Below the pieces are notes generated by a model that made no database searches, was not told where the DNA came from, and worked only from the letters and a program-made list of their open reading frames with translations. The translations under genes were made by a program, and so were the position numbers. 38,818 nt of DNA. Origin: a virus. Positions 1 through 27,221 of the stretch are shown piece by piece (position 1 is the stretch's first letter; the number at the start of each line of letters is the position of its first letter). The DNA lies in the IMG/VR virus record IMGVR_UViG_3300046722_000287, positions 1 through 38,818 of that record. One strand, 5' to 3'.

Positions 1-57
1 GTCGAGCGCCAGGGCATCACGCTGCCGCGGCTGAAATGCCTGGAGGAGGATCTATGA
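1..57 (+). CDS. C-terminal end of upstream CDS (partial)
   Basis: Frame 1 is open from the window edge and gives 18 residues ending LKCLEEDL before a TGA at 55-57. The stop overlaps the ATG of the next small ORF (ATGA at 54-57), so the pair looks translationally coupled. In phages with a DUF1073 portal the preceding gene is often the large terminase subunit. Too little is visible here to say which protein this is. Confidence 0.6.
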   Translation, partial: VERQGITLPRLKCLEEDL

Positions 58-128
58 GGCGGGAGATCGTCCGCGCGGCGCTGCTGTTCGTCGCGCTGGT
101 CGCGCTGAACGTGTTCTTCGGAGGCTGA
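54..128 (+). CDS. tiny hydrophobic single-segment peptide (24 aa)
   Basis: ATG at 54 overlaps the upstream TGA, and the ORF ends with TGA at 126-128, four bases before the portal ATG. The peptide has a short basic start (MRREIVR) and then an uninterrupted hydrophobic stretch of about 16 residues, as in a single transmembrane helix. The coupling at both ends and the membrane-like composition argue for a real gene. The size makes chance possible. No function is assigned. Confidence 0.42.
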   Translation: MRREIVRAALLFVALVALNVFFGG

Positions 129-132
129 GCCG

Positions 133-3100
133 ATGGGATGGGGCGGGGCGCGTCCGGGAGCCGGCCGCAAGAAACCGAAGGCGCCGGCGACGCCGCCGCT
201 CAAGCCCAAGCCGACTCCGGAGATGCGCGAGGCGGAGCGCCGCTCGGTCGCCGCCATGCACGAGATGATCGAGGCGTCCCGCGCGGCGGCCTCGTCGGCC
301 CGCGAGAAGCAGGCGCACCTCAACCCGTTCGCCATCCGCCCGGACCTGTTCCCGCCGCCCGCCGTCCCGAAGGCCAAGGGGATGCGGCTCGCGATGGACG
401 ACGCGACCAACTGGGCGTCGAACGCCTGGGCGGCCTCCGGCGCGGTGCTCGGCGCGGCGCAAGAGGGGCTGATGTTCCTCGGCTACCCGTACCTCTCGGA
501 GCTGGCGCAGCGCCCGGAGTACCGGACCTTCGCGGAGACCATCGCGACGGAGGCGACCCGGAAGTGGATCAAGCTGAAGGGCTCGAAGGCCGAGGAGGAG
601 GCCGAGGAGAAGGGCGCGACCCCGGAGCAGGCGCAGGACGAGCAGGCCGAGGCCGACGACAAGAACGACAAGATCAAGGATCTGGAGGGCTACCTCAACC
701 AGCTCCAGGTCCGCGACCACTACGCCAAGATCGCGCTGCACGACGGGCTGTTCGGGCGGAGCCACCTCTACTACGACTTCGGCACCGATCTCGGCGATGA
801 CGAGCTCAAGACGCCGATCGGCAACGGTCGCGACGAGCTGACCAAGGCGAAGGTCACGACGGGATCGCTGAAGCGGCTGAGCGTGATCGAGCCGGTCTGG
901 ACCTACCCGACGACCTACAACGCGAGCAACCCGCTGGCGCCCGACTGGTACAACCCGCAGGTCTGGTACGTGCTCGGGCGCGAGATCCACGCGAGCCGCA
1001 TCCCGCGGTTCGTGAGCCGCGAGGTGCCGGACATCCTCAAGCCGGCGTACTCGTTCGGCGGGCTCTCGCTGACGCAGCTCGCCAAGCCCTACGTCGACAT
1101 CTGGCTGACGACGCGGGCGAGCGTCGGGCAACTGATCCACGCGTTCTCGGTCATGGTGCTGATGACCGACCTGGAGAGCATCCTGCAGCCGGGCATCGCG
1201 ACCTCGCTGCTGGCGCGCGTCAACCTGTTCAACGCGCTGCGCGACAACCAGGGGACGTTCGTCCTCAACAAGGAGACCGAGGAGTTCAAGAACGTCAGCG
1301 CGCCGCTCTCGGGCTTGCACGAGCTCCAGGCCCAGGCGCAGGAGCACATGATGAGCGTCGCCCGCATCCCGGCGGTGAAGTTCACCGGGATGCAGCCGCA
1401 GGGGCTCAACGCGTCGAGCGAGGGCGAGATCAGGGCGTTCTACGACACCATCGAGGCGTTCCAGAACGCGTTCTTCCGCCCGAAGCTCAACACGACGCTC
1501 GACTTCGCGATGATCTCGCTGTGGGGCGCGCGCGACGAGGAGATCGTCTACGACTTCGAGCCGCTGTGGGCGCTGAGCGAGAAGGAGAAGGGCGAGCTTC
1601 GCAAGGCCGACGCGGAGACCGACCAGATCCGGATCGACACCGGCGTCGTTAGCTCGGAGGAGGTCCGCGCCAAGGTCGCGGCCGATCCGGACTCCGGCTT
1701 CGACAACCTCGACCCCAACGACGTGCCCGACCTCCTGGAGGAGGAGGCGCAGGGCCTGCAGCCCGAAGGCGGGCGGCCGCAGCCGATCGCGCAGGGCGAC
1801 CCGACCGGCGAAGTCAGCGAGGGAGGCGGGGCTAACGACGCCGTGGTCCCTTTCGGCGGCGGCGCTGACGAGGCGGGCTTCGAGGAATCGAAGCATCCCC
1901 GGGACGACGGCGGCAAGTTCACGAGCGGCTCCGGCGGCGGCAAGGGCGTTCCGCACGCGCCGCAGTTCGGCCTCCAGCACGGCAAGTTCACCGCGCCCGG
2001 CGGCGGCTCGTCGTCGTCGTCCTGGTTCACCGGGTTCGGCGCGAAGAAGACCAACGTCGGGGAGCCGATCGACGTCTCGAAGATGAAGAAGGTCGGCGCC
2101 CAGATGGGCTCGAACCCGGGCGGCGTGTTCGAGGGCGAGGGCGGCGAGAAGTTCTACGTCAAGCGGGGCAAGTCGAAGGCCCACGTCCGCAACGAGATGG
2201 TCGCCGCGGCGCTCTACGACCTGGCCGGCACGCCGACGCTGAAGTACCGGCCGGTCGAGGGCGGCGAGCACGTCGCGACCGAGATGGCGAAGCTCGACAA
2301 GGACAACGCGGCGAAGCTGTCGAAGGCCGAGCGGGCCGAGGCGGCGCGCGACTTCGCGGTCCACGCGTGGCTCGCCAACTGGGACGCGGTCGGCACCGGC
2401 GGCGACAACCTCGGCACCGTGCGCGGCGTGCCGACGGCGCTGGACCTCGGCGGCGCGCTGGAGTTCCGGGCGCAGGGCGCTCCGAAGGGCAAGGCGTTCG
2501 GCACGAAGGTCGGCGAGCTCGACACGCTGCGCGACGGCAGCAACCACGACGCGGCGAAGATGTTCGGCGACATGACGCCGGCGCAGATGCGCGAATCGGC
2601 GCGGTACGTCGCGGCGATCGGCGACCAGAAGATCAAGGACGCGGTCGAGAAGAACGGCGGCGACGCGGCGCTGGCCGAGAAGCTGATCAAGCGGCGCGAC
2701 GACATCGCGGAGCGGATGAAGACGTTCGGCGAGGACGGCGACCCGGAGAGCCCGGACGGCACGATGGTCGTCCCCGCCGGCGGCAAGATGCCGATCAAGA
2801 AGCTGAACGGCGTGGCGTTCAAGCCGTGGCGGCCGCCGGCCGACTGGGCCGCGGTCGACGGCCAGGCCGAGATCGACGAGCCCGAGTTCTTCGTGACGCC
2901 GGGCAAGCGCGCCTCGACCGGCGTGATCGTGCGCGAGGCCGACGGGCGGGTGTGGCTGATCCAGCCGCGCAACGGCTACGGCGGCTACGAGGGGACGTTC
3001 CCGAAGGGCGGGCTCGAGAAGGGGCTGTCGCTGCAGGCCAACGCGATCAAGGAAACCTGGGAGGAGAGCGGGCTCAAGGTGAAGATCACCGGGTTCGCCG

Positions 3101-5217
3101 GCGACCACGAGGGCGACGCCTCGACGACGCGCTACTACCACGCCGAGCGCGAGGGCGGCGACCCGTCGCAGCACGACGACGAGAGCGAGGGCGTCGTGCT
3201 GGTCCCGGAGAGCAAGGCGGCGGGCTTCCTCAACCGCAAGCGCGACCAGGCGGTGCTGGCGCACGACGAGGCGAACTTCGAGGAGAGCAAGCACCCGCGC
3301 GACGCGGAGGGCAAGTTCGCCACGACCGCGGGAGGCGGCGGCGGGCCGAAGGAGTTCGCGAAGGAGCTGAAGAAGATCGTCGGCAAGCACGGCGAGGGCG
3401 GCTCGTTCGAGAGCGCCGAGAAGAAGGCGGTCGCCGCGCTGAAGAACAACGTCGGCGAGGAAGATCTGGAGGCGGCGCTGTCGCCGGTCGAGGCGCACGA
3501 GCTGAAGAAGGCGCACGGCGGCTCGCTCGCCAAGGCGATGCAGAACCTGGCCGAGGAACACGGCATCGGCGGGGAATCGCTCGCGGAGGAGCCTGATGAT
3601 GAGGAGGAGGGCTCCCTCTCCGCGAAGCAGATCGAGGATCTCCCGCTGCTCGGCAAGGCGATGCAGTTCGTCCACGGCGGCGGGGTACCGCTGACGAACG
3701 CCGAAGCGACGACTTTGGCGAGCGAGATGGGAATGGAGATGCAGGACGTGTGGGACATGGTCGAAACGACCCCGCCCGATCTTACGCCATCGCTGGAAAC
3801 GAAAGCTCCGGCGGCGACCTCTAGCGGCGGCAAGAAGACCGCGTTCGGCGGCCTGTGGAAGGTCGGCGTCGGTGCGCCGGGATCGGCCGAGGAGTTCGGC
3901 CACAACGTCGGGCACGTCCTCGGGAAGCCGACCAACGCGGGCTCGACCTACCGCACGATGCTCGGCTTCATGATGAAGAACGCCGCGAAGCACGGCATGC
4001 CCGAGATGGCCGAGAAGCTGAAGGACAAGCTCGGCGAGGCGTTCTTCCTGGCCGGCAACAAGGCGGCGCAGCAAGGCGAGGGCGCGGCCGCGGCGAAGGC
4101 GTTCAAGAAGGCGGCCGAGTTGGGATACCTCGGCGGCTCGCCGGCGGCGCCGCTCCTCGCACCCGCCGAGAAGGCGGTCGCGGCGGCGGCGAAGGCTCCG
4201 ACCCCGAAGGCCGCGGCGAAGGCGGCGGAGGAGGTCAAGCCGAGCAGCTTCCCGGCCCCGACGGCGCAGGAGCTGGAGAAGGCGAAGAAGTCGGTGCAGC
4301 TCCAGTCCGCGTACGTGCCGGGCTTCAACGAGCTGCAGCAGATGAACGGGGCGATGACCGTGGTCCCGGAGGTGAACAAGCTCGTCAACGAGTTCAACGC
4401 CAAGTACGAGGGCAAGACGCTGACCGACGCCGGCGCGCTGGCGCAGAAGGTCAACGACTTCAAGACGCTCGGGGCGAAGGTCGCGGCGCTGAAGGCTTAC
4501 GTGCAGCAGAACCAGACCGAGCTGCAAAAGAAGCAGGCGGCGAAGCAGAAGGAGGCGGCGGCCGAGCAGGCGAAGAAGGCCGCGGCGGAGAAGGAGAAGC
4601 TCAAGGCGCAGCACGCCGAGGTCACGAAGGAGCTCGGCATCACCGAGCCGGCCGAGCTGGAAGCCTTCGACGCGTTCGTCGACCACTTCGGCGGCACGAA
4701 GAACGCGCTCGACAAGTTCAAGTCGTGGACGGCGGAGGCGCAATACGCGGCGGCGAAGAACCCCGGCCACGGCTTCGAGAAGCTCTCCGGCTTCGAGATG
4801 GGCTGCATCAAGGCGTACACCGGGCCGCAGTCCGGCTGGATCAACACGGCGATCCGCGACGACGCGATGACGCCGGCGCAGTTCATGTTCGAGAAGGTCC
4901 TCAACGCCGCGATCGACAAGCTGCCGAAGCAGACCAAGCCGACGAAGCGCGGACTCTCGCTCGACGCGGCGACGCAGGGGAAGCTCAAGCCCGGCGTGAT
5001 CTGGACGCACCGCAACTTCGCGAGCAGCAGCTCGAGCGGATGGGGCGGCAACACCAAGCTGCACATCACGACCAGCGGCAAGGGCGGCGCATACGTCGAC
5101 CCGATCTCGTCCCACAAGGGCGAGGACGAGACGCTGTTTAAGAGCAACCTGAAGCTCTATATTGAGAAGGTCGAGAACAAGGGCGGCGTGCTGCAGGTTT
5201 ATTGCAAAGAGATGTGA
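133..5217 (+). CDS. portal protein (DUF1073-type) fused to kinase-like, Nudix and ADP-ribosyltransferase domains
   Basis: This is a 1694-aa multidomain protein; ordinary DUF1073 portals are about 450-550 aa. Residues about 80-560 match the DUF1073 portal family, which forms the DNA entry/exit ring at one capsid vertex. A linker FEESKHPRDDGGKF (583-596) leads to a HipA-like kinase-fold domain at about 650-880: candidate nucleotide Lys677, loop LANWDAVG (Asp751) with D758/N759, and metal-type Asp771 in ALDLGG. Residues about 925-1045 are Nudix-like. The box at 959-981 keeps E974, E977, E978 and G980, but the usual Glu at box position 7 is Leu and the usual Arg is Lys. A second linker (1049-1062) leads to an Ala/Lys-rich helical region (about 1070-1510). 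The C-terminus (about 1515-1694) is ART-like: YTGPQSGWIN (1562-1571), R1606, Ser run 1631-1635 (STS-type) and E1664-D-E1666 (ExE). The N-terminus carries GGARPGAGRKK. Portal identity is confident; catalytic activity of the added domains is inferred. Confidence 0.9.
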   Translation: MGWGGARPGAGRKKPKAPATPPLKPKPTPEMREAERRSVAAMHEMIEASRAAASSAREKQAHLNPFAIRPDLFPPPAVPKAKGMRLAMDDATNWASNAWAASGAVLGAAQEGLMFLGYPYLSELAQRPEYRTFAETIATEATRKWIKLKGSKAEEEAEEKGATPEQAQDEQAEADDKNDKIKDLEGYLNQLQVRDHYAKIALHDGLFGRSHLYYDFGTDLGDDELKTPIGNGRDELTKAKVTTGSLKRLSVIEPVWTYPTTYNASNPLAPDWYNPQVWYVLGREIHASRIPRFVSREVPDILKPAYSFGGLSLTQLAKPYVDIWLTTRASVGQLIHAFSVMVLMTDLESILQPGIATSLLARVNLFNALRDNQGTFVLNKETEEFKNVSAPLSGLHELQAQAQEHMMSVARIPAVKFTGMQPQGLNASSEGEIRAFYDTIEAFQNAFFRPKLNTTLDFAMISLWGARDEEIVYDFEPLWALSEKEKGELRKADAETDQIRIDTGVVSSEEVRAKVAADPDSGFDNLDPNDVPDLLEEEAQGLQPEGGRPQPIAQGDPTGEVSEGGGANDAVVPFGGGADEAGFEESKHPRDDGGKFTSGSGGGKGVPHAPQFGLQHGKFTAPGGGSSSSSWFTGFGAKKTNVGEPIDVSKMKKVGAQMGSNPGGVFEGEGGEKFYVKRGKSKAHVRNEMVAAALYDLAGTPTLKYRPVEGGEHVATEMAKLDKDNAAKLSKAERAEAARDFAVHAWLANWDAVGTGGDNLGTVRGVPTALDLGGALEFRAQGAPKGKAFGTKVGELDTLRDGSNHDAAKMFGDMTPAQMRESARYVAAIGDQKIKDAVEKNGGDAALAEKLIKRRDDIAERMKTFGEDGDPESPDGTMVVPAGGKMPIKKLNGVAFKPWRPPADWAAVDGQAEIDEPEFFVTPGKRASTGVIVREADGRVWLIQPRNGYGGYEGTFPKGGLEKGLSLQANAIKETWEESGLKVKITGFAGDHEGDASTTRYYHAEREGGDPSQHDDESEGVVLVPESKAAGFLNRKRDQAVLAHDEANFEESKHPRDAEGKFATTAGGGGGPKEFAKELKKIVGKHGEGGSFESAEKKAVAALKNNVGEEDLEAALSPVEAHELKKAHGGSLAKAMQNLAEEHGIGGESLAEEPDDEEEGSLSAKQIEDLPLLGKAMQFVHGGGVPLTNAEATTLASEMGMEMQDVWDMVETTPPDLTPSLETKAPAATSSGGKKTAFGGLWKVGVGAPGSAEEFGHNVGHVLGKPTNAGSTYRTMLGFMMKNAAKHGMPEMAEKLKDKLGEAFFLAGNKAAQQGEGAAAAKAFKKAAELGYLGGSPAAPLLAPAEKAVAAAAKAPTPKAAAKAAEEVKPSSFPAPTAQELEKAKKSVQLQSAYVPGFNELQQMNGAMTVVPEVNKLVNEFNAKYEGKTLTDAGALAQKVNDFKTLGAKVAALKAYVQQNQTELQKKQAAKQKEAAAEQAKKAAAEKEKLKAQHAEVTKELGITEPAELEAFDAFVDHFGGTKNALDKFKSWTAEAQYAAAKNPGHGFEKLSGFEMGCIKAYTGPQSGWINTAIRDDAMTPAQFMFEKVLNAAIDKLPKQTKPTKRGLSLDAATQGKLKPGVIWTHRNFASSSSSGWGGNTKLHITTSGKGGAYVDPISSHKGEDETLFKSNLKLYIEKVENKGGVLQVYCKEM
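1879..1920 (+). other. HPRD linker motif, copy 1 (portal / kinase-like junction)
   Basis: This encodes FEESKHPRDDGGKF, followed by Gly/Ser-rich sequence, where the portal domain ends. The same pattern recurs at 3277-3318 and 16181-16222. It marks a domain border and may be a flexible linker, a protease site or a docking site. Confidence 0.8.
3277..3318 (+). other. HPRD linker motif, copy 2 (Nudix / helical region junction)
   Basis: This encodes FEESKHPRDAEGKF, followed by a Gly-rich stretch. It is nearly identical to copy 1 in the same protein and separates the Nudix-like domain from the Ala/Lys-rich region that leads to the ART domain. Confidence 0.8.
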
Positions 5218-5219
5218 CG

Positions 5220-5543
5220 ATGGTCGAGCGAATCGACGCCACGCAGATGCTCCTGACGCCGGAGGAGGCCGCGCAGTTCGACGCGCAGGCCGCGGCGCAG
5301 GCGAGCGGATCCGCGAGCAAGGCCGAGGCGCGCTACCAGAACGAGCCGCGCGGCGAGGAGAGGTGCGACAAGTGCTCGATGTTCGTCGCGGGCTTCCCCA
5401 CGGACCCCGGCGGCTTCTGCACGAAGGTCACGTCGTTCCGCGGCGGCCCGCTCGGCACGATCTTCGCGGACGGCTGGTGCAGGTTCTTCGAGCCGGACCC
5501 GCTCGCGGAGGAGCAGCCCGAGGACTTCGCGGACTTGAAATGA
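5220..5543 (+). CDS. HiPIP-like four-cysteine small protein
   Basis: The product is 107 aa. The spacing C49-x2-C52-x14-C67-x19-C87, with the last Cys in GWC, resembles the [4Fe-4S] ligand pattern of high-potential iron-sulfur-like proteins; similar small proteins occur near phage head genes. The ATG at 5220 is preferred because it lies just after the portal stop, although an in-frame TTG at 5202 would overlap the portal gene. The gene ends in an ATGA overlap with the MuF-like gene. The N-terminal half is Glu/Ala-rich and probably helical. Whether it binds an Fe-S cluster or zinc cannot be decided from sequence. Confidence 0.72.
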   Translation: MVERIDATQMLLTPEEAAQFDAQAAAQASGSASKAEARYQNEPRGEERCDKCSMFVAGFPTDPGGFCTKVTSFRGGPLGTIFADGWCRFFEPDPLAEEQPEDFADLK

Positions 5544-7419: not shown

Positions 7420-8001
7420 ATGTCGACCTGCGACCACTGCGCGCTCTGGCTGGTGCGCCGAGAGACCGGCTACGACGGCGGCGAGATCGTCGTCACCTGG
7501 TTCGACCCCGACGGCCGCGGCAAGTGCCTGGGACCGCTCAAGGGCGTCCTGACCGAGCCGGAGTTCGGCTGCAACTCGTTCCAGGATGGCGGTCCGCTGA
7601 TCGAGACCTCCCGCAAGGGCGGCCACCCGTGGCAGCACGCGACGCCGATCCCGTGCCCCGACTGCCGCAAGCCCGGCTGCGGCTTCGTCGCGCCCGGCGA
7701 ATGCACGGCGATCGGCTGCCCCGGGACCGACAAGTGCCTCGGGCTCGGCAGCGCCAACGACGGGGCCGACGGCCGCTGCGTCGGCACCGGGACCGTGCTG
7801 CGCTACGACGACGGCTTCGTCGGCGACAACCGCACGAAGAAGCACCCGAAGGAATCGGAGCGGGTCGAGCCGAGGTCGTGCCAGCGGTGCGCCAGGCCGG
7901 TCGAGACGACGTGGCTGCACTGCCCCCACTGCGGGCAGAACCTGCACGAGGAGGGGAAGACCGAGGTCCTCAACGACGTCCTGACCGGAGGCATCACGTG
8001 A
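7420..8001 (+). CDS. cysteine-rich multi-ribbon protein
   Basis: The product is 193 aa. It contains an N-terminal CDHC, a central cluster (CPDC, a single Cys, Cys-x-Ala, Gly-Cys-Pro, Lys-Cys-Leu) and a C-terminal CQRC...CPHCGQN. The last pair is a classical zinc-ribbon arrangement (C-x2-C, about 13 residues, C-x2-C). The middle resembles a disulfide- or metal-stabilised small domain. It sits between another Cys-rich gene and the methyltransferase/glycosyltransferase fusion, with which it shares a GTGA overlap at 7998-8001. Function is unknown; nucleic-acid or protein binding through the ribbon is possible. Confidence 0.75.
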   Translation: MSTCDHCALWLVRRETGYDGGEIVVTWFDPDGRGKCLGPLKGVLTEPEFGCNSFQDGGPLIETSRKGGHPWQHATPIPCPDCRKPGCGFVAPGECTAIGCPGTDKCLGLGSANDGADGRCVGTGTVLRYDDGFVGDNRTKKHPKESERVEPRSCQRCARPVETTWLHCPHCGQNLHEEGKTEVLNDVLTGGIT

Positions 8002-10340
8002 GAAGCGAGCACTTCTGGAGCTGGTTCGACGGCCACGCGGTGCCGCGGCTCAAGGGCGGCAACCCGCAGATGAACCGGGTCAACACGTTCCGGGCGATGT
8101 TCGAGCACCTCGACGGCTTCGAGGAGCCGCTGATCGTCGAGACCGGCTGCATCGAGGAGCCGGACAACTGGGTCGGCAACGGCTGCTCGACCATCATGTT
8201 CGACAAGTACGCGGACTTCGCCGGCGGCTTCGTCAGGTCGGTCGACATCGACCGGGGGAAGGCTTCGCGGGCCAACGCGCTGACCGGCGAGCGCACGACC
8301 GTCGCCTGCGCCGACAGCGTCGCGTTCTTGAAGGCGCTGGGCGCGCAGCCGGAAATTCCGGCGCTGGTCTACCTCGACGCGTCGCACCTCAACTGGCAGG
8401 TCGAGACCGAGGCGCAGGTCCACCACTTCCTGGAGCTGAAGGCGATCTGGCCGCGGCTGGCGCCCGACACGATGGTCGCGGTCGACGACAGCCCGGCGAT
8501 CCTCGACGAGAACGGCCGGCTGATCATCTGCGGCAAGGGCGGGCTCGTCGCCCGGCACGCCGGCGAGGTCGGCGCGGCGCTGGCGTTCACCGAGTACCAG
8601 AGCGGCTGGACCGGCTTCCCCGGCTCGCCGGAGCGCACCGACGAGGCGGCCGAGGAGATCCTCGGGCGCGCGCGGTGGCTCCTGGAGAACGGCGAGTGGG
8701 CGAAGGCGCACCCGCTCTACCGCTCGGTCCTGGTCCGCACCCCGCCGCCCTGGAACGGCGTCCAGCGCGTCATGCACGGCGAGGCTTGCGCGTTCTTCGC
8801 GCGGCTCGCGCTCCAGCACGAGCGGCCCGGCGCCGCGTTCGACTGGTTCAAGCGGGCGCTGGAGGCCGACCCGATGGCGGCCGACTACCGCGTCGAGCTG
8901 GTCAACAAGGCGATGCTGCCGCTCGGCATGACCGGCGCGGCGAAGTCGGAGGCCGAGCGGGCGACCAAGATCGAGCCGTCGAACCAGTACGCCTGGCGGA
9001 CGCTCGGCCTGGTCGAGGGAAGGCTGAACAACGCGGCGAAGAGCCTCGCCGCGCACGAGGAGCAGGCGCGGCTGACCGGGCGGTCGACCGTGGCGCTGCT
9101 CGACGTGGTCGCGACGCTCGTCGACGTCGAGCGGTACGAGGAGGCGGCGACGCTGCTCAACGAGGTCGAGGCGCGCGACCCGAACGACGCGATGATGGGC
9201 GACGTCCGGCAGTGCCAGGCGATGATCCTGGCGCGGCACGGCGACCACGAGGCGGCGATCCAGCTCTTCGAGGACGCGATCGAGATCGGCTGCTGCGACC
9301 CGACGCTCTGCCACTTCCACCTCTCGCTGTCGCTGCACTCGATCGGGCGCTACCGCGAGGGCTGGGCGCACCACTCGATGCGGGCGAAGAACGCGAGCGA
9401 CCCGGCGCTGTTCGTGCCGATGCGGCGGTTCGACCGGCCGCTCTTCACGCTCGACGCGCCGCCGTCGACGGTCCACGTCCACGCCGAGGCGGGAGCGGGC
9501 GACAACATCGCGATGCTGCGCTACCTGCCGCTGCTCCGGGAGATGGGCCACAAGGTCCGCTACGAGTGCCGCGACGAGCTGCTCGAGCTGGCGCGCTTCA
9601 GCCTGCCCGGCGTCGAGGTCGTGCCGATGGCGAAGGACTACCCCGGCAGCCTGGGGCTGCGGGACTTCGACCTGCACTGCCCGGTCGGCGAGCTGCCGCA
9701 CGCGTTCGGGACCGAGGTCGACACGGTGCCGTGGAGCGGTCCGTACCTCTCGGCCGACCCGGGGTGGGCCGAGCGGTTCGCCGAGCACAAGGGCAAGATC
9801 GGCCTCGCGTGGTCGTCCGGCATCCGCCCGGAGGGCATCTGGCTCAAGCGGTACGGCGAGCTGAAGTCGCTGAAGTTCAGGGACGTCGGTCGGCTGCTTT
9901 GGCAGGGCGACGGGTGGACCAAGCGGGCGTGGGAGAGGATGGTGTCGCTCCAGGTCGGATCGGGCCGCGAGGAGAACGACAAGCTGCTCCTCGCCGACGT
10001 GCTGAGCGAGAGCCCGACGTGGGCGGAGACCGCGGGGCTGCTCGCGAACCTCGACCTCGTCATCACGCCGGACACCGGGCTCGCGCACCTCGCCGGCGCG
10101 ATGGGCAAGCGCACGATCCTGCTGATGCACTGCCACAACAGCGGCTGGCACTTCATGTGCGAGCGGCCCGGCGCGTTTTGGAACGAGCGCAGTCCGTGGT
10201 ATCCGAGCGTCACCGTCGTCCGCCAGCGCGAATCGGGGCGGTGGGACGACGTCGTCGATCGCGCGCTCGGGATGGTCGAGCTGTGGGAGCGGACGCATGA
10301 CCACGCAGAGGTGGCGGAGCCGGCGGGACCGGGAGCCTGA
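7998..10340 (+). CDS. methyltransferase-like / TPR / GT-B glycosyltransferase fusion
   Basis: The product is 780 aa from a GTG that overlaps the upstream TGA. Residues about 1-205 look like a class I Rossmann domain of the SAM-methyltransferase type seen beside glycosyltransferases: VETGC near residue 48, then an Asp after a beta strand (VDIDRG) and a later VAVDDSP. Residues about 215-475 are helical pairs with TPR spacing and composition. Residues about 480-770 resemble GT family 9 / heptosyltransferase-like GT-B: VHVHAEAGAGDNIAMLRYLP, then KIGLAWSSG, then DLVITPDTGLAHLAGAMGK, the nucleotide-sugar binding end. TPR plus GT-B recalls protein O-glycosyltransferases. The acceptor is unknown; the downstream repeat protein or another virion protein is an inference from position. 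Confidence 0.8.
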   Translation: MRSEHFWSWFDGHAVPRLKGGNPQMNRVNTFRAMFEHLDGFEEPLIVETGCIEEPDNWVGNGCSTIMFDKYADFAGGFVRSVDIDRGKASRANALTGERTTVACADSVAFLKALGAQPEIPALVYLDASHLNWQVETEAQVHHFLELKAIWPRLAPDTMVAVDDSPAILDENGRLIICGKGGLVARHAGEVGAALAFTEYQSGWTGFPGSPERTDEAAEEILGRARWLLENGEWAKAHPLYRSVLVRTPPPWNGVQRVMHGEACAFFARLALQHERPGAAFDWFKRALEADPMAADYRVELVNKAMLPLGMTGAAKSEAERATKIEPSNQYAWRTLGLVEGRLNNAAKSLAAHEEQARLTGRSTVALLDVVATLVDVERYEEAATLLNEVEARDPNDAMMGDVRQCQAMILARHGDHEAAIQLFEDAIEIGCCDPTLCHFHLSLSLHSIGRYREGWAHHSMRAKNASDPALFVPMRRFDRPLFTLDAPPSTVHVHAEAGAGDNIAMLRYLPLLREMGHKVRYECRDELLELARFSLPGVEVVPMAKDYPGSLGLRDFDLHCPVGELPHAFGTEVDTVPWSGPYLSADPGWAERFAEHKGKIGLAWSSGIRPEGIWLKRYGELKSLKFRDVGRLLWQGDGWTKRAWERMVSLQVGSGREENDKLLLADVLSESPTWAETAGLLANLDLVITPDTGLAHLAGAMGKRTILLMHCHNSGWHFMCERPGAFWNERSPWYPSVTVVRQRESGRWDDVVDRALGMVELWERTHDHAEVAEPAGPGA

Positions 10341-10443: not shown

Positions 10444-11112
10444 ATGCCCCTGGTCGACTCCAACCAAGCCTCGCTCTGGGACGGCAGCAGCGACCTCTCG
10501 CTCTATCGCGCCTGGGTCAACAACCTGCCGGTCGGCTACCAGCGGATGGCCGACGGCAGCAGCCCGTTCATCGGCAACGACGCGAAGGCGCTGATCGCGG
10601 CGCTGGAGAGCCGCGGCCTGCTCAAGACGCACCGGCTCGTGCTGATCGGCGCGGGCTTCGGCTTCGTCCACGACGAGTTCCTCGCGGCGGGTTATGGGCC
10701 GACCGCCGACGGCACGGCGAACGGCAAGCTGCTGAGCGTCGACACCTCGACCTACATCCAGGCCAACCTCAATGGCAACGCGCGCGTCCCGATCCTGAAC
10801 GCCGACGTGAACGCGGCGACCGGGCGCCGGACGGTGCGCCAGCAGTTCGGCAGCAACAACGCCGCGGTCGACTGGATCGTCACCGAGGACGTGCTCGGCA
10901 CGCTGATCGGCGCCGGGCCGACGCCGGGCGGCAACAACGAGATCGTGCCGCTCTGCCAGAACCTCCGCACATTCACCGCCAACGTCGCGCACTGGATCAG
11001 CCCGCTGACGGCGAGCAGCGACCCGCGCCTCAACTGGAAGGCGATGAGCGAGTGGAAAGCCTGGGTCGCGCCTGACCTGGTGATCCAGCGCGGCACCTCG
11101 GCGGTGCTGTAA
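10444..11112 (+). CDS. Rossmann-like protein, possible SAM-dependent methyltransferase
   Basis: The product is 222 aa. The stretch RLVLIGAGFGFVHDEFL is a glycine-rich nucleotide-binding turn after a hydrophobic strand (methyltransferase motif I type). VDTS follows at the expected distance for the ribose-binding acidic position, then NADVN and IVTEDVLGTL as later strands. The N-terminus (MPLVDSNQASLWDG) and C-terminus (VIQRGTSAVL) look like phage proteins of unknown function rather than classical enzymes. The stop TAA shares one base with the next ATG. The methyltransferase call is an inference from fold motifs only; another Rossmann-fold activity or an inactive structural use is possible. Confidence 0.6.
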   Translation: MPLVDSNQASLWDGSSDLSLYRAWVNNLPVGYQRMADGSSPFIGNDAKALIAALESRGLLKTHRLVLIGAGFGFVHDEFLAAGYGPTADGTANGKLLSVDTSTYIQANLNGNARVPILNADVNAATGRRTVRQQFGSNNAAVDWIVTEDVLGTLIGAGPTPGGNNEIVPLCQNLRTFTANVAHWISPLTASSDPRLNWKAMSEWKAWVAPDLVIQRGTSAVL

Positions 11113-15790: not shown

Positions 15791-15821
15791 CCGGCGAGGG
15801 AATCGGTGCTATCCATCGGCG

Positions 15822-16004
15822 ATGGGCCGGCTGAAATTCCTTCGGCGGTGGTTGCGGAGCGGGGTTTGCTACTCGCTCGTCGCCGCGCCGTGGCTCGCCG
15901 CCCCGATCGAGCGGTTCGCGCCCGGCGTCTATCCGTTCGGCCGCGAGCCCGTCCCGACCGACGAGGATCGCAAGCGCAGGCAGCGCGGCGCGGCGCGAAC
16001 ATGA
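15822..16004 (+). CDS. small hydrophobic-basic protein
   Basis: The product is 60 aa. A basic start (MGRLKFLRRWLRS) precedes a short hydrophobic stretch (VCYSLVAAPWLAAP), then a hydrophilic, positively charged C-terminus. The stop overlaps the ATG of the protease gene (ATGA at 16001-16004), which supports translation, but the ribosome-binding sequence is weak. It could be a small membrane-associated protein. Function is not recognised. Confidence 0.5.
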   Translation: MGRLKFLRRWLRSGVCYSLVAAPWLAAPIERFAPGVYPFGREPVPTDEDRKRRQRGAART

Positions 16005-18214
16005 TCACGAACCCGAGCTCCGGACCTCCCGCCGGCCTCCGCAAGCTGGTCGACGACATGCGCCAGCGCGGCATCGCCGACGACATGACGCCGGAGGACT
16101 GGGCGGCGATGCGGCGCGGCTTCAGCCAGTGGATGAGCGAGGAGGAGCGCGAGGGGGAGGAGCACGGCGAGGACGCCGAGTTCAAGGAATCGGATCACCC
16201 GCGCGACAACACCGGAAAGTTCGGATCGGGCGGCGGCGGCAAGACGTCGAGCAAGGATCCTGCCAGGGAGGGCCGGATCGCCGCCGGCTTCAAGGGCGGC
16301 ACGCCCGGCGAGCAGGGCGAGATCGCGGCGAAGACCGACGCGGCGGCGGTCGAGCATTCCAAGAAGGCCGGGCTGGCGATCATCAAGCGGATCAAGCGCG
16401 ACTCGTTCCTCGGCAAGTACGCCAGCTCGGACGACGAGTACGGCAACGACCCGTTCACGGTCAGGAAGGACGGCTCGGTCGAGGTCTCGATGCGCGACGT
16501 CGGCCAGTGGGTCAACCCGCCCGGCAAGGAGCGCGAGGAGGACTACGACTGGAAGGTCCCGACCAAGGAAACCGAGGCCAAGGTCAAGGCGGCGGTCGCG
16601 TCGATGGAGAAGGAGCTCGGCGTCAAGATCAGCGTGAGCGGCGGCGAGAAGAGCTACACGTATTTCCGGATCTCCGCGCCGAAGGCCGGCGATGAGTCGG
16701 TGGCGACTGATTCGGCCCTTCGCCTCGCGCTCGACCGCGAATCGATCCGCGAGAAGTCGAAGGACGGGCACCTCCACGTCGCCCGCACGCCGATCTCGAA
16801 GGCGACCGTCAACCCGTACCGCGGCGCGGAGATTCCGAACTGCGAGGAGCTCGGCCTCGACCCCGAGGAGATCTACTACCTGCTGCGCGATCCGGACGAG
16901 CTGGCGAAGGCCGCGGCGAGCTTCAACGGCAAGCCTTTGCTGCGTAAACACGTGCCCGTCAGCGCCGAGGACCACGCCGCGCACGACACCATCGGCGCGG
17001 TGATGAACGACGCCGCGTTCGAGGATCCGTACCTCAAGGCGAGCCTCTCGGTTTGGCCGCAGGACGACATCGACGACATCGAGTCGGAGGCGAAGAAGGA
17101 GCTGTCGAGCGGCTACCACTACCGCGCCGAGATGACTCCCGGAAATTTCCGTGGTATGCGCTACGACGGGGTGATGAGGGACATCGTTGGAAACCACGTC
17201 GCCCTGGTGAAAGATGGACGCGCCGGCCCGGACGTCGTGGTCGGTGACAGCATGGAGAGCCTCATGGCCAAGCCGACCCGTTTCGCCGCCCTCACCCTCG
17301 GCCTGGTCGCCGCCAACGTCGCACCGCTGATCGCCAAAGACTCGAAGATCGAGCTGCCGAAAGGCCTGTTCTCTTCGATCACCACCAAGAACTTCCAGAC
17401 GAAAAGGACCGAGCTGCTCGGCGGCGTCCGCGCCGCGCTCGACGGCAAGCTCCGCAAGGGCCTCGCGCTCGACGCCAGCATGGAGCAGGTCGGCAAGGTG
17501 ATGGACAACGTCGCCGGGCTGTTCGGCGAGAAGGGCGGCGACGAATCGGTCTCCGAGGAGCAGCACAACGCGATGGAGGCCGCGGCCCACGGCGAGAGCA
17601 ACCTCGGCATCCCGAAGAGCGTCGGCGAGGAGTTCGAGAAGGCCGACAAGGGCAAGTCGTTCGACGCCGAGCCGTTGAAGAACTTCCTGCGCGAGAAGGG
17701 CATGGGCGAGGACGACATCAAGGCGGCGTTCGACATGCTGCCGAAGCCCGGCACGGACGCGTCCGAGGAGGAGCAGGCCGAGAAGACCGAGGAGGAGAAA
17801 AAGGCCGCGGTCAGCGAGGCCGTCGAGAAGGAGCGCAAAGCTATGGACGAGAAACTCAAGGGCATGGTCACGAAGACCGCGATGGACGAGGCGATCAAGG
17901 CCGCCGCGAAGACCACGCGCGAGACCGAGCGCGGCATCCGCGCCGCCCTGGACTTCGTCCGCCCCTACGTCGGCGAGCTCGCCTCGTCGCTGGCGCTCGA
18001 CAGCGCCGACGACGTCTACCGCCACGCCGCGGTGGCGATGAAGATCGACGGCGCGAAGGACATCCACCCGTCGGCGCTGCCGACGCTGATCAAGATGCTG
18101 CCGAAGCCCGGCGCGCGCCAGACCGAGCACACCTCGATCGCGCAGGACGAGGCGACGGTGACCGACTTCGAGAAACGCTTCCCGAACGCCACCCGGATCC
18201 AGCCCGGCGCCTGA
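16001..18214 (+). CDS. capsid maturation protease / scaffold precursor (DUF2213)
   Basis: The product is 737 aa from the ATG overlapping the previous stop. Residues 1-60 are helical and acidic. A linker FKESDHPRDNTGKF (61-74) is nearly the same as the two in the portal fusion. Residues about 90-230 form an unrecognised small domain (VEVSMRDVGQWVNPPG region). Residues about 255-420 match DUF2213, a prohead-protease-type family: GHLHVARTPISKATVNPYRG, then LLRKHVPV, then MRDIVGNHVALVKDGRAG. The rest is Lys/Glu/Ala-rich helix typical of a fused scaffold, with a segment ALDFVRPYVGELAS. It would form the inner core of the procapsid and process head proteins. Placement just before the decoration and capsid genes agrees. 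It is longer than usual because of the linker and extra domain. Confidence 0.85.
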   Translation: MITNPSSGPPAGLRKLVDDMRQRGIADDMTPEDWAAMRRGFSQWMSEEEREGEEHGEDAEFKESDHPRDNTGKFGSGGGGKTSSKDPAREGRIAAGFKGGTPGEQGEIAAKTDAAAVEHSKKAGLAIIKRIKRDSFLGKYASSDDEYGNDPFTVRKDGSVEVSMRDVGQWVNPPGKEREEDYDWKVPTKETEAKVKAAVASMEKELGVKISVSGGEKSYTYFRISAPKAGDESVATDSALRLALDRESIREKSKDGHLHVARTPISKATVNPYRGAEIPNCEELGLDPEEIYYLLRDPDELAKAAASFNGKPLLRKHVPVSAEDHAAHDTIGAVMNDAAFEDPYLKASLSVWPQDDIDDIESEAKKELSSGYHYRAEMTPGNFRGMRYDGVMRDIVGNHVALVKDGRAGPDVVVGDSMESLMAKPTRFAALTLGLVAANVAPLIAKDSKIELPKGLFSSITTKNFQTKRTELLGGVRAALDGKLRKGLALDASMEQVGKVMDNVAGLFGEKGGDESVSEEQHNAMEAAAHGESNLGIPKSVGEEFEKADKGKSFDAEPLKNFLREKGMGEDDIKAAFDMLPKPGTDASEEEQAEKTEEEKKAAVSEAVEKERKAMDEKLKGMVTKTAMDEAIKAAAKTTRETERGIRAALDFVRPYVGELASSLALDSADDVYRHAAVAMKIDGAKDIHPSALPTLIKMLPKPGARQTEHTSIAQDEATVTDFEKRFPNATRIQPGA
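16181..16222 (+). other. HPRD linker motif, copy 3 (protease precursor)
   Basis: This encodes FKESDHPRDNTGKF followed by a Gly-rich stretch. It matches the portal-fusion linkers in 10 of 14 positions and lies before the extra domain and the DUF2213 domain. A shared processing or docking signal between substrate and protease is possible. Confidence 0.8.
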
Positions 18215-19278: not shown

Positions 19279-20373
19279 ATGAACCTCCAAGAAGCCCGCG
19301 CCCAGTTCCAGGCCGACAAGCCGATGCTGGCGGCGCGCGGCGTCGTCCTTCCGGGCGTCGACCGCTACCTCACGCCGGCGGAGAAGGCGGACTTCCGGAT
19401 CGCGATGGACGCCATCCCGGGCCTCGCCACCGACCCGTCCTCGGCGATCCCGGCGATCCTGACCACCGCGATCGACCCGCAGGTCATCCACGTGGTGTTC
19501 TCGCCGCTGGCCTTCGGCAAGATCCTCGGCGAGCAGAAGCGCGGCGACTGGCTCGAGGAAACCCGGATGTTCCCGGTCGTCGAGATGACCGGCGAGGTGT
19601 CGAGCTACGGCGACTTCAACAACAACGGCCGCGCCGGCATCAACATGAACTGGCCGCAGTTCCAGTCGTACCTGTTCCAGACCTTCGTGCGCTACGGCGA
19701 GCGCGAGCTGGAGCGGGCCGGCCTCGGCAAGATCAACTACGTCAGCGAGCTCGACATCGCGGCGGCCTCGCTCCTCAACCGCTTCCAGAACCTGACCTAC
19801 GCCTTCGGCGTCCAGACGCTGCAGAACTACGGGATCATCAACAACCCGTACCTGTCGGCGTACCTGACGCCGGCGACCAAGGCGGCGGGCGGCACGGCCT
19901 GGTTCACCGCGGGCGGCTCGCCGAACGCGACGGCGAACGAGGTCTACAACGACGTCGTCGCGCTGTGGCAGCAGGTCATCGCGCAGACGCAGGGCGCGGT
20001 CGACATGAACCAGAAGGCGACGCTCGCGCTGTCGCCGCAGAGCGCGCTCGCGACCAAGTTCGCGAACTCGTTCGGCGTCTACGTCTCCGAGCTGCTGAAG
20101 ACCGGCTTCCCGAACATGAAGGTCGAGCAGGCTCCGCAGTACGGCACGCAGACCGCGACCAACCCGCAGGGCGCCTCGACCGCGGGCAACGTCGTGCAGC
20201 TCATCCTCGACGACGTCGACGGCCAGCAGGTCGCCTACGCCGCGTTCAACGAGAAGCTGCGCGCGCACAAGATCATCCCGGAGCCGTCGGCCTGGCAGCA
20301 GAAGAAGACCAGCGGCTCGTGGGGAACGATCACGCGGATGCCGGTCGGCATCTCGCAGATGATCGGCATCTAG
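19279..20373 (+). CDS. major capsid protein (DUF2184)
   Basis: The product is 364 aa, with CAGGAG upstream of the ATG. The sequence matches the DUF2184 capsid family (HK97-like fold): VIHVVFSPLAFGKILGEQKR, then EVSSYGDFNNNGRAGINMNW, then QSYLFQTFVRYGERELERAG, a C-terminal PQGASTAGNVVQLI region and the end TRMPVGISQMIGI. It forms the icosahedral shell. Order is protease, decoration protein, capsid, as usual. It is followed by a 153-base gene-free spacer with strong hairpins, the longest gap in the window. Confidence 0.92.
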   Translation: MNLQEARAQFQADKPMLAARGVVLPGVDRYLTPAEKADFRIAMDAIPGLATDPSSAIPAILTTAIDPQVIHVVFSPLAFGKILGEQKRGDWLEETRMFPVVEMTGEVSSYGDFNNNGRAGINMNWPQFQSYLFQTFVRYGERELERAGLGKINYVSELDIAAASLLNRFQNLTYAFGVQTLQNYGIINNPYLSAYLTPATKAAGGTAWFTAGGSPNATANEVYNDVVALWQQVIAQTQGAVDMNQKATLALSPQSALATKFANSFGVYVSELLKTGFPNMKVEQAPQYGTQTATNPQGASTAGNVVQLILDDVDGQQVAYAAFNEKLRAHKIIPEPSAWQQKKTSGSWGTITRMPVGISQMIGI

Positions 20374-25460: not shown

Positions 25461-27221
25461 ATGTCCACGATTCCCGCCTCGGAACTCGTACAAGTCACGC
25501 CCAGCGTCATCGGGGCCGGCGGCACCGCGGTCGACGTCATCGGCCTGCTCCTGACCTCCAGCACGCGGCCGCCGGTCGGCTCGATCCTGACGTTCTCCTC
25601 CGCCGCCGACGTCTCGACCTACTTCGGGGCCGCCTCGCTCGAGGCCGCGCTCGGCGCGGTCTACTTCGCGGGCTTCAACGGCAAGAACAAGATCCCGGCC
25701 TCGATCCTGTTCGCGCAGTACAACGCCGCCGCCGTGTCGGCCTACCTCCGCGGCGCGGCCTACGGCCTTACGCTCGTCCAGCTCCAGGCGGTCAGCGGCA
25801 CGCTCGCCGTCGTCGTCGACGGCTTCTCCTTCAGCGCCGGCGCGCTCAACCTCTCGGCGGCGACGAGCCCGTCGTCGGCCGCGGCCATCATCCAGACCGC
25901 GCTCAACGGCGGCGCTCCCGCGGGGGCGTCGTTCACCGGCGTGATCTCGACGACCACGCTGACGACCTCCGCCGTGACCGGCACCATCGCGGCCGGCCAG
26001 ACCGTCGCGGGCGTCGGCGTCGCGGCGGGGACGGTGATCCAGTCGCAGATCGGCGGCACGCCGGGCGGCGCGGGCACCTACGCCGTCAACAACTCGCAGA
26101 GCGTCGGCAGCGAGGCGATGACCTCGGCGGCGACGCCGGTCGTCGTGAGCTACGACTCGGTCTCCGCGGCGTTCGTCGTCACCTCGGGGATCACCGGGGC
26201 GGTCTCGACCATCGCGTTCGCGACCGGGACGACCGCGGCGACGCTCAAGCTGACCTCGGCGACCGGGGCCGTGACCTCGCAGGGCGCGGCGGCGGCGACG
26301 CCGGCGGCGTTCATGAACGCGATCATCGCGCAGACGACGAACTTCGTGACGTTCATGACGACGTTCGACCCTGACCCGAGCGGCAACACCAACAAGCAGG
26401 CGTTCGCCGCCTGGAAGAACACCGCGCTCGGCGGCAACCGCTTCGCCTACGTCTGCTGGGACCTCGACGCCTCGCCGACGACCTCGGTGCCCGCGGCGGC
26501 GAGCCTCGGCCAGATCCTCCTGGCGAACTCCGACTCGGGGACCTGCCTGCTCGACGGCGACGCGGCCTCGGGCTGGAACGCGACGGCGGGGGCGACGCTC
26601 GCGGCGTTCGTCTGCGGCGCGGCCGGCTCGATCGACTTCGAGCAGAACAACGGGCGCATCACGTTCGCCTACAAGGCGCAGGACGGACTCGCCGCGACGG
26701 TGACGACGCAGACCGTCGCCGACAACCTCGGCGGCAACCCGCAGACCTCGAGCCGCGGCAACGGCTACAACTTCTACGGCGTGTACGCGACGGCGTTGAT
26801 CTGGCTCCAGCGCGGCTTCGTCACCGGCGCCTACCTCTGGCTGGACAGCTACATCAACCAGGTCTGGCTCAACAGCTCGTTCAAGGCGGCGATGCTGAAC
26901 CTGCTGCAGAACTCCAAGTCGGTGCCCTACAGCACGGCGGGCTACGCGCTGATCGAGAACTCGCTCGCGGCGACGATCCAGGCGGGCCTCAACTTCGGCG
27001 CGTTCGGGCCGGGCTCGATCTCGGCGACGCAGATCGCGGAGGTCAACGCGCAGGCCGGGAGCGACGTCTCGGGCCCGCTGCAGACCCAAGGCTGGTATCT
27101 CCAGGTGCTCGACGCGAGCTCCAGCGCGCGCGCGGCGCGGACCACGCCGCCGGCGACGTTCTGGTACCTCGACCGCGGCTCGGTGCAGTCGATCAACCTC
27201 GCCAGCGTGGCGGTCCAATAG
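25461..27221 (+). CDS. tail sheath protein (DUF3383), with inserted beta module
   Basis: The product is 586 aa, with a GGAGG site upstream. The sequence follows the DUF3383 sheath family: PASELVQVTPSVIGAGGTA, then VSTYFGAASLEAALGAVYF, a central FAYVCWDLDASPTTS region, GNGYNFYGVYAT and a C-terminal domain with DRGSVQSINLASVAVQ. It would form the contractile outer tail tube, which defines the phage as myovirus-type. Residues about 158-222 are a module starting FTGVISTTTLTT and ending SVGSEAM, placed in an N-terminal domain likely to face outward. Confidence 0.9.
   Translation: MSTIPASELVQVTPSVIGAGGTAVDVIGLLLTSSTRPPVGSILTFSSAADVSTYFGAASLEAALGAVYFAGFNGKNKIPASILFAQYNAAAVSAYLRGAAYGLTLVQLQAVSGTLAVVVDGFSFSAGALNLSAATSPSSAAAIIQTALNGGAPAGASFTGVISTTTLTTSAVTGTIAAGQTVAGVGVAAGTVIQSQIGGTPGGAGTYAVNNSQSVGSEAMTSAATPVVVSYDSVSAAFVVTSGITGAVSTIAFATGTTAATLKLTSATGAVTSQGAAAATPAAFMNAIIAQTTNFVTFMTTFDPDPSGNTNKQAFAAWKNTALGGNRFAYVCWDLDASPTTSVPAAASLGQILLANSDSGTCLLDGDAASGWNATAGATLAAFVCGAAGSIDFEQNNGRITFAYKAQDGLAATVTTQTVADNLGGNPQTSSRGNGYNFYGVYATALIWLQRGFVTGAYLWLDSYINQVWLNSSFKAAMLNLLQNSKSVPYSTAGYALIENSLAATIQAGLNFGAFGPGSISATQIAEVNAQAGSDVSGPLQTQGWYLQVLDASSSARAARTTPPATFWYLDRGSVQSINLASVAVQ
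25932..26126 (+). repeat. shuffled beta module, copy 6 (sheath)
   Basis: It encodes FTGVISTTTLTTSAVTG... through GGAGTYAVNNSQSVGSEAM. Its end (SQSVGSEAM) is nearly the same as that of the copy in the baseplate J protein (SQTVGSEAM). Confidence 0.8.

Follow-up and report, generated by a model that had tools for sequence, protein, structure and literature searches.

A phage portal protein carrying a predicted HipA/CtkA-like kinase, a Nudix domain and an ADP-ribosyltransferase

Effector domains on phage head proteins

Phages and conjugative elements encode, among their virion genes, large multidomain effectors known as polyvalent proteins (Iyer et al. 2017, PMC5512222); in the part of that paper available to us, 2H, PBECR and InPase domains are fused to portal proteins, and 2H and PBECR also to MuF. 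Here we describe a portal protein encoded at positions 133–5217 of a viral DNA, IMG/VR record IMGVR_UViG_3300046722_000287 (positions 1 to 38,818; this whole stretch of 38,818 nucleotides is the window). Like the polyvalent proteins it is encoded amid virion genes and strings together, in a single chain, effector domains that are unrelated to one another: a predicted kinase, a Nudix domain and an ADP-ribosyltransferase (ART). How does it differ from them? In the available part of PMC5512222 the ARTs belong to the H-Y-D Tox-ART-HYD2 clade, and the kinases form a distinct Ser/Thr/Tyr group with a lost C-terminal subdomain and a His...Asp insert, whereas the window ART is of the R-S-ExE type and the window kinase is HipA/CtkA-like. 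That part holds no kinase–Nudix–ART set, and 'HipA' has 0 occurrences in it.

A second paper, likewise available in part, describes MuF and portal proteins fused to ARTs that are packaged in the virion or to NudE-like Nudix domains (PMC9503650). The window protein resembles these in bearing an ART and a Nudix domain on a head protein; but the available text has 0 occurrences of 'HipA' and no such kinase, and the closest matches of the window Nudix domain are Ap4A hydrolase and MutT1. In five Gratiaviridae gut phages a HipA-family kinase lies between the portal and the major capsid protein (PMC8008677). That kinase, which we liken to ours by its description only, also sits beside a portal gene but has a gene of its own, and 'Nudix' and 'ADP-ribosyl' have 0 occurrences in the part of the paper at hand. 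The ART of phage T4, Alt, is borne in the head and injected with the DNA (PMC5512222, in part). The window protein would share with Alt a head-borne ART. Alt, however, is a separate protein outside the portal and is not known to have a kinase or Nudix domain fused to it. With HipA and CtkA the window kinase shares the predicted fold, a glycine-rich loop and the catalytic and metal aspartates, but it differs as part of a virion protein. Similarly, the closest folds and profiles of the window ART, and its R-S-ExE residues, are those of interbacterial and exotoxin R-S-E enzymes (6drh, Lmo0066, Vis, SpvB, VIP2), whereas the window ART sits on a phage head protein.

The general kind, effector cargo on head proteins, is known already. 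No report of the kinase–Nudix–ART set, of the kinase family or of the linker described below (six spellings tried) was found in the literature searched, which lay mostly outside subscription papers and preprints. We read the protein as a portal with a tail of three enzymes, a head-borne cargo that would be delivered with the DNA and act on the host, and we give this reading a probability of about 0.6.

The portal fusion and its domains

The protein is encoded by a single open reading frame (ORF) on the plus strand, from an ATG at 133, preceded by GGAGG, to a stop codon ending at 5217. Codon positions 1/2/3 have GC fractions of 0.65/0.45/0.96, the pattern expected for a genuine plus-strand gene, so that the equally long minus-strand ORF at 52–5115 would be its shadow; third-position GC (GC3) and homologies match the plus strand, and the minus-strand gene was rejected. 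A DUF1073-type portal comes first; a predicted HipA/CtkA-like kinase and a Nudix domain follow, and a long linker leads to the ART, which is of the arginine type (R-S-ExE). AlphaFold2 (AF2) models are given with their predicted local distance difference test (pLDDT) and predicted template-modelling (pTM) scores.

133..5217, plus strand: portal fusion protein, 1694 residues; single ORF, GGAGG upstream, GC3 0.96
490..1629, plus strand: portal domain, residues 120–499, Phage_portal_3/DUF1073 type; PF06381 1.4e-75, phrog_146 1.2e-98
1879..1920, plus strand: linker 1, residues 583–596, FEESKHPRDDGGKF; motif at residue 588
2062..2802, plus strand: predicted HipA/CtkA-like kinase, residues 644–890 (structural match 644–867); AF2 pLDDT 97.3, CtkA match, conserved residues
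2803..3249, plus strand: Nudix domain, residues 891–1039, variant box G959–L981; PF00293 4.7e-12, fold matches, profile
3277..3318, plus strand: linker 2, residues 1049–1062, FEESKHPRDAEGKF; motif at residue 1054
4657..5214, plus strand: R-S-ExE ART, residues 1509–1694; AF2 pLDDT 88.8, 6drh fold match, 8za7 profile 8.6e-27

Might so long a fusion be an assembly artefact? A near-identical protein (99.8–100% identity) is present in three further IMG/VR contigs with three dataset numbers, complete in L003 and L004 and ending with the contig in L005, and a fourth contig, L006, has the same domain order with Acb1 inserted behind the portal. These copies, and the shared order, exclude an artefact. 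Identity to L006 is 53% for the portal, 64–65% for the kinase, 72% for the Nudix domain and 35% for the ART. At 37% across its core (residues 1551–1683), against 65% for the kinase and 72% for the Nudix domain, the ART is the fastest-changing part in this pair.

Neither Pfam nor PHROGs names a family for the kinase segment of this protein. Across 12 members, the best NCBIfam match was only 0.014, in 1/12, and 12 PHROGs families, 10 of them nameless, matched in 1/12 members each (best 4.4e-4). HipA profiles matched relatives (HipA_2 at 0.0097 in 1/12, HipA_C at 8.7e-4 in 1/40) and did not match the window protein, and a sequence-profile search of the PDB with the kinase gave unrelated names, the best at 0.041. 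The domain has a GSNPGG glycine-rich loop, and in an alignment of 12 relatives G659, S660, N661 and G663 of this loop, K677, E688, N749-W750-D751, N759 and D771 are invariant. A larger set of 192 non-identical rows retains K677 in all 192, E688 in 190, D751 in 191, N759 in 188 and D771 in 190. The model of residues 640–1043, kinase plus Nudix, was made from an 84-row alignment of kinase, kinase-plus-Nudix and Nudix-only rows, and has a pLDDT of 97.3 and a pTM of 0.93. VIA-align matched its kinase part to Helicobacter pylori CtkA (Z 15.1, 207 residues aligned, 3.6 Å) and to CotH (Z 13.1); this is the source of the kinase match, the 50 matches listed by Foldseek being all Nudix proteins by title. 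Chance motif matches were rejected as the source of the kinase call, since the predicted fold and the 192 aligned rows concur. At least 580 relatives were confirmed among at least 599 stretches of viral contigs, and 69 of 79 in genome contigs. From the conserved catalytic residues, the predicted fold and the number of relatives, the kinase belongs to a large, apparently active, HipA/CtkA-like family that is nameless in Pfam, NCBIfam and PHROGs.

Pfam NUDIX matches residues 925–1029 at 4.7e-12, with 46.5 bits against a cut-off of 21.1. In profile comparison Aquifex Ap4A hydrolase comes closest (2.5e-13), and VIA-align places the model beside MutT1 and Ap6A hydrolase, with Z about 15–16 (maximum 16.0). 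The canonical Nudix box, GX5EX7REUXEEXGU, is not matched: its first Glu is replaced by L965 (L in 80 of 102 rows) and its Arg by K973 (K in 101 of 102). On the other hand, E974, E977 and E978 are retained in 102, 100 and 102 of the 102 rows. What might this domain hydrolyse? Dinucleoside polyphosphates, which would suit its nearest relatives, and ADP-ribose derivatives, which would suit its partner domains, are both candidates.

In the ART, Pfam ADPrib_exo_Tox matches residues 1642–1682 at 0.0013, below its cut-off. PHROG 595, labelled head maturation protease, matches residues 1471–1692 with its C-terminal part (8.5e-9) and the window MuF protein with its middle part (6.1e-14). The model of residues 1372–1694 (pLDDT 88.8, pTM 0.70) has as its closest solved structure 6drh, an ART from a toxin/immunity pair, which we take to be Tre1 (VIA Z 21.8, 181 residues aligned, 2.0 Å). 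The profile matches 8za7 (8.6e-27) as well as Lmo0066, Vis, SpvB and VIP2, and a search of viral structure models has among its best rows one portal, two phage proteins annotated as ART and several uncharacterised ones. The window domain has the R, F-x-S-[ST] and ExE elements of R-S-E ARTs; R1606 is kept in 121, S1631 in 115, E1664 in 125 and E1666 in 132 of 134 rows. Elsewhere, at L057:5242-8664, L063:4192-9021, L091 and L092, two to four ART copies stand around or ahead of one kinase.

Could these domains simply decorate the portal and aid assembly or DNA packing, catalysis being irrelevant? They do belong to the portal polypeptide. But the near-absolute conservation of catalytic residues, and the occurrence of the same enzymes apart from portals, make a structural role very improbable. 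All three active sites are apparently intact, as judged from alignments and models.

A preliminary description of this gene had proposed a 5.1-kb frame, a DUF1073-type portal, a HipA-like segment with K677, D751 and D771, a Nudix-like box and an R-S-E ART core. The frame is indeed uninterrupted, the portal match holds, and the kinase residues, the box and the ART residues lie where they had been placed; structure prediction returned all three folds, with their active-site residues conserved. Profile searches found relatives for the Nudix domain and the ART, whereas no library names the kinase. The suggestion that the Nudix domain acts on ADP-ribose gained no support, sequence and fold being nearest to Ap4A hydrolase and MutT1.

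Partners and linkers of the kinase family

Do the three enzymes keep company in other phages? Viral locus sets were made from the best 80 of at least 580 kinase relatives and the best 80 of 236 Nudix relatives, so the shares describe the closer relatives; each set has 3 copies of the window protein and other near-duplicates, the two overlap, and these loci also served for iterating the Nudix and ART profiles. Nudix-seeded loci have a kinase in 62, an ART in 57 and all three in 46; kinase-seeded loci have an ART in 56, a Nudix domain in 33 and all three in 22. (Five loci from a separate search, seeded by one ART-bearing ORF, were left out of the counts.) Among 50,697 phage records, tblastn of residues 640–890 matched 19 (E 0.01; best 3e-26) and the Nudix domain was found in 8 (E 0.001), with 7 records common to both; these are related phages and not 7 independent events.

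At 85% identity the kinases of loci L001–L007 and L017–L175 form 102 clusters, in which the kinase ORF also carries an ART in 61, a Nudix domain in 47 and a portal in 20. All three enzymes share one ORF in 24 of the 102. The portal with all three, which the preliminary description had called unusual, recurs in 9 of the 102, window included, and is no peculiarity of a single phage. In the 61 clusters with both, the kinase precedes the ART in 58 and lies between two ARTs in 3; the Nudix domain may stand ahead of or behind the kinase. In one portal with all three enzymes (L116:1639-9312) an intein/Hint-like insert interrupts the portal domain (Intein_splicing 3e-6, a match below the cut-off).

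The partners also occur as neighbour genes. A large kinase-plus-ART protein, then one gene, then a Nudix gene is the order in Yersinia phage fHe-Yen8-01, Pseudomonas phages Dolphis and Touem01, Enterobacter phiT5282EW, Aeromonas ST4 and Morganella Mecenats66; in Gordonia phage Forza the kinase gene is directly behind the portal gene and an ART gene two genes further. The depositor of fHe-Yen8-01 labels three products 'particle-associated': those of the kinase-plus-ART gene, of the gene behind it and of the Nudix gene. The gene between kinase/ART and Nudix genes codes for 159–167 residues in 6/6 loci (L002, L008, L009, L010, L014, L015); no Pfam match above cut-off was found in the three of the six that were scanned, and the fHe-Yen8-01 product is the one labelled particle-associated.

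A Pfam scan of 40 kinase ORFs found Phage_portal_3 in 8, DUF2213, presumably a head-protease family, in 5 and MuF in 2. Fusion of the kinase to these three suggests the head as its destination. Could the enzymes nevertheless be made late with the head proteins and act in the producing cell, for example by excluding other phages, the portal fusion being incidental? Such a role has been suggested for the Gratiaviridae kinase (PMC8008677, in part). For a cytosolic late enzyme, however, fusion to portal, DUF2213 and MuF would be odd, and the particle-associated label on a relative would not fit; we regard a late role as unlikely.

The anti-CBASS protein Acb1 was found in three portal fusions, at L006:4607-9790 (3.6e-33), L024:3427-9663 (3.3e-37) and L108:2992-10212 (3.8e-29), so part of such cargo would be anti-defence. 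Is all of it? The Nudix domain, with Acb1 in relatives, might chiefly destroy or block nucleotide- or NAD-based immune signals while the ART and kinase inactivate defence proteins, transcription and translation being left alone. Acb1 within the same proteins speaks for this, as does the literature, in which Nudix and related domains of phages are seen as counteracting ADP-ribose signals (PMC9503650, in part). But Acb1 occurs in few relatives (2/40 kinase ORFs scanned), and the Nudix domain is nearest to Ap4A hydrolase. A purely anti-defence cargo is a possibility we take seriously, while leaning against it.

What joins the domains? Linkers 1 and 2 flank the kinase–Nudix block and have the consensus ExxHPRxxxG[KQ]F (ExxHPRxxxGKF form), common to many phage head proteins and effectors (loci L250–L366). 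HPRx(2-6)G[KRQ]F is present in 60 of 270 non-identical kinase, Nudix or ART ORFs versus 11 of the 10,721 remaining ORFs in these loci. With iterated profiles, untrimmed, 0 copies start inside domain hits (97,378 residues) versus 83 in 206,462 other residues. The first kinase profile was built on an alignment running into the linkers, and its C-terminal end covers some motifs; with the kinase hits trimmed the counts are 0 in 92,949 and 83 in 210,891. Of 81 linker ORFs without the four domains of the portal fusion, 56 were scanned. They carry three Pfam portal types, DUF2213, XkdF-like protease, MuF, Zeta toxin and topoisomerase IB, as well as NUDIX, RelA/SpoT, PBECR, GNAT, ART-PolyVal and PI3/PI4-kinase-like domains. 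The linker would seem to serve as a general connector of effectors to head proteins; possibly it is a cleavage or packaging tag.

The linker also gave a control sample that the domains themselves did not seed: at least 117 contigs with 124 ORFs, or 119 after removal of two copies of the window protein and three exact duplicates. In this sample Nudix occurs in 3/7 kinase proteins versus 1/112 others (p 5e-4), and ART in 6/7 versus 9/112 (p 9e-6), both on small numbers; for Nudix with ART p is 0.08 and for kinase with portal 0.67. On the kinase tree the minimum number of changes is 6 for portal fusion, 22 for ART in the same ORF and 13 for Nudix. Independent-pairs tests of Nudix versus ART and of portal versus Nudix had too few pairs and gave no support. 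The pairing of the kinase with Nudix and ART looks real; coupled gain and loss is unsupported.

Are the enzymes then independent payloads, with unrelated targets, brought together only through cassette shuffling of head cargo? The varying order of Nudix and kinase, the linkers between domains, the 22 or more changes of ART in the kinase ORF and the lack of coupling in tree-aware pair tests would all suit such shuffling. However, among linker-bearing proteins the kinase is far oftener with Nudix and ART than the others are, and in ORFs with both kinase and ART the kinase stands ahead of the ART or lies between two ARTs. We consider independent payloads quite possible, at slightly worse than even odds.

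At the other extreme the enzymes might form one pathway on one target. The ART would add ADP-ribose, the Nudix domain would trim it (or a nucleotidylated product of the kinase fold) to a phosphoribosyl or other scar, and the kinase would prime or lock the target; such a scar would resist host ADP-ribosyl-hydrolases. The model places the kinase against the Nudix domain with high overall confidence (pTM 0.93). If so, phages would carry in the head a machine for irreversible protein modification, an effector of a new kind, but we consider this doubtful.

Delivery of the cargo and the gene neighbourhood

The portal fusion lies in a cluster of virion genes, to which the following belong.

5220..5543, plus strand: next gene, 107-residue cysteine-containing ORF without an assigned function; ATG at 5220, two bases past the portal stop codon
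5540..6325, plus strand: MuF head-morphogenesis protein; PF04233 2.7e-13, phrog_324 2.4e-80; ATG at 5540
15806..18214, plus strand: head maturation protease, candidate for cargo release; phrog_2229 3.3e-108 at residues 306–799
19279..20373, plus strand: major head protein; phrog_264 1.1e-53
25461..27221, plus strand: tail sheath; phrog_205 6.8e-70

With the tail sheath, and baseplate genes also downstream, the phage is contractile-tailed by its gene content.

How might the cargo reach the host? Since the portal C-terminus lies inside the head, the tail would enter the head during assembly. No ribosome-site-like start codon (energy -6 or lower) lies between residues 407 and 983, so separate translation of the whole cargo was rejected, and every subunit of the 12-subunit ring should carry a tail of ~1100 residues. 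Release would then require cutting by a protease; the cluster encodes a head maturation protease, and we infer that this enzyme may free the tail, perhaps at the linkers. The freed enzymes would pass into the cell with the DNA, in the manner of T4 Alt. There the ART would ADP-ribosylate, and the kinase phosphorylate, host or defence proteins, and the Nudix domain would hydrolyse a nucleotide product or signal. The outcome would be host takeover or a block of defence within the first minutes.

Several points weigh against a delivered cargo. Without a cut the portal would remain in the virion, and cleavage at the linkers is putative. A tail of that size on every subunit should be bulky for the ring, and starts at residues 1022, 1206 and 1330 could give a separate ART. 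Company is thinner in the 69 kinase-seeded bacterial genome loci (ART in 24, Nudix in 13, all three in 7). Within the 102 clusters Nudix was not found at the locus in 39 and ART in 26, some loci being cut. Tree-aware tests of joint gain or loss of Nudix and ART were not significant (median p 1). The particle association in fHe-Yen8-01 is a depositor's annotation, and we found no paper on that phage. Finally, the case for the window phage is computational. The head association given in the preliminary description is nonetheless backed by gene context and relatives, and its interpretation as a whole is partly supported.

Few phage kinases have been described, and our results add to them a large, apparently catalytic family that is so far nameless. 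The results also tie this family to one Nudix subfamily and to ARTs, with a common linker joining head proteins and effectors. What phages inject besides DNA becomes testable in cultured relatives, such as the Pseudomonas putida phages Dolphis and Jeremy, and by simple enzyme assays.

Some smaller features of the neighbourhood deserve mention. The spaced cysteines of the 107-residue ORF (CDKC...C...WCRFFEP) recall small iron–sulfur proteins, and in phage DSL-LC01 a gene labelled high potential iron-sulfur protein lies near the kinase gene. In the protease ORF ~300 residues, mostly unassigned, precede the protease match, and the annotated start is provisional. The ORF at window 7524–10340, between MuF and the protease, contains TPR repeats; it matches a glycosyltransferase-9-like family above the cut-off and has a sub-threshold methyltransferase-like match. 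Also among the head genes, window 11112–15500 is a 1462-residue ORF with no family match, the best being BNR_2 at 0.075.
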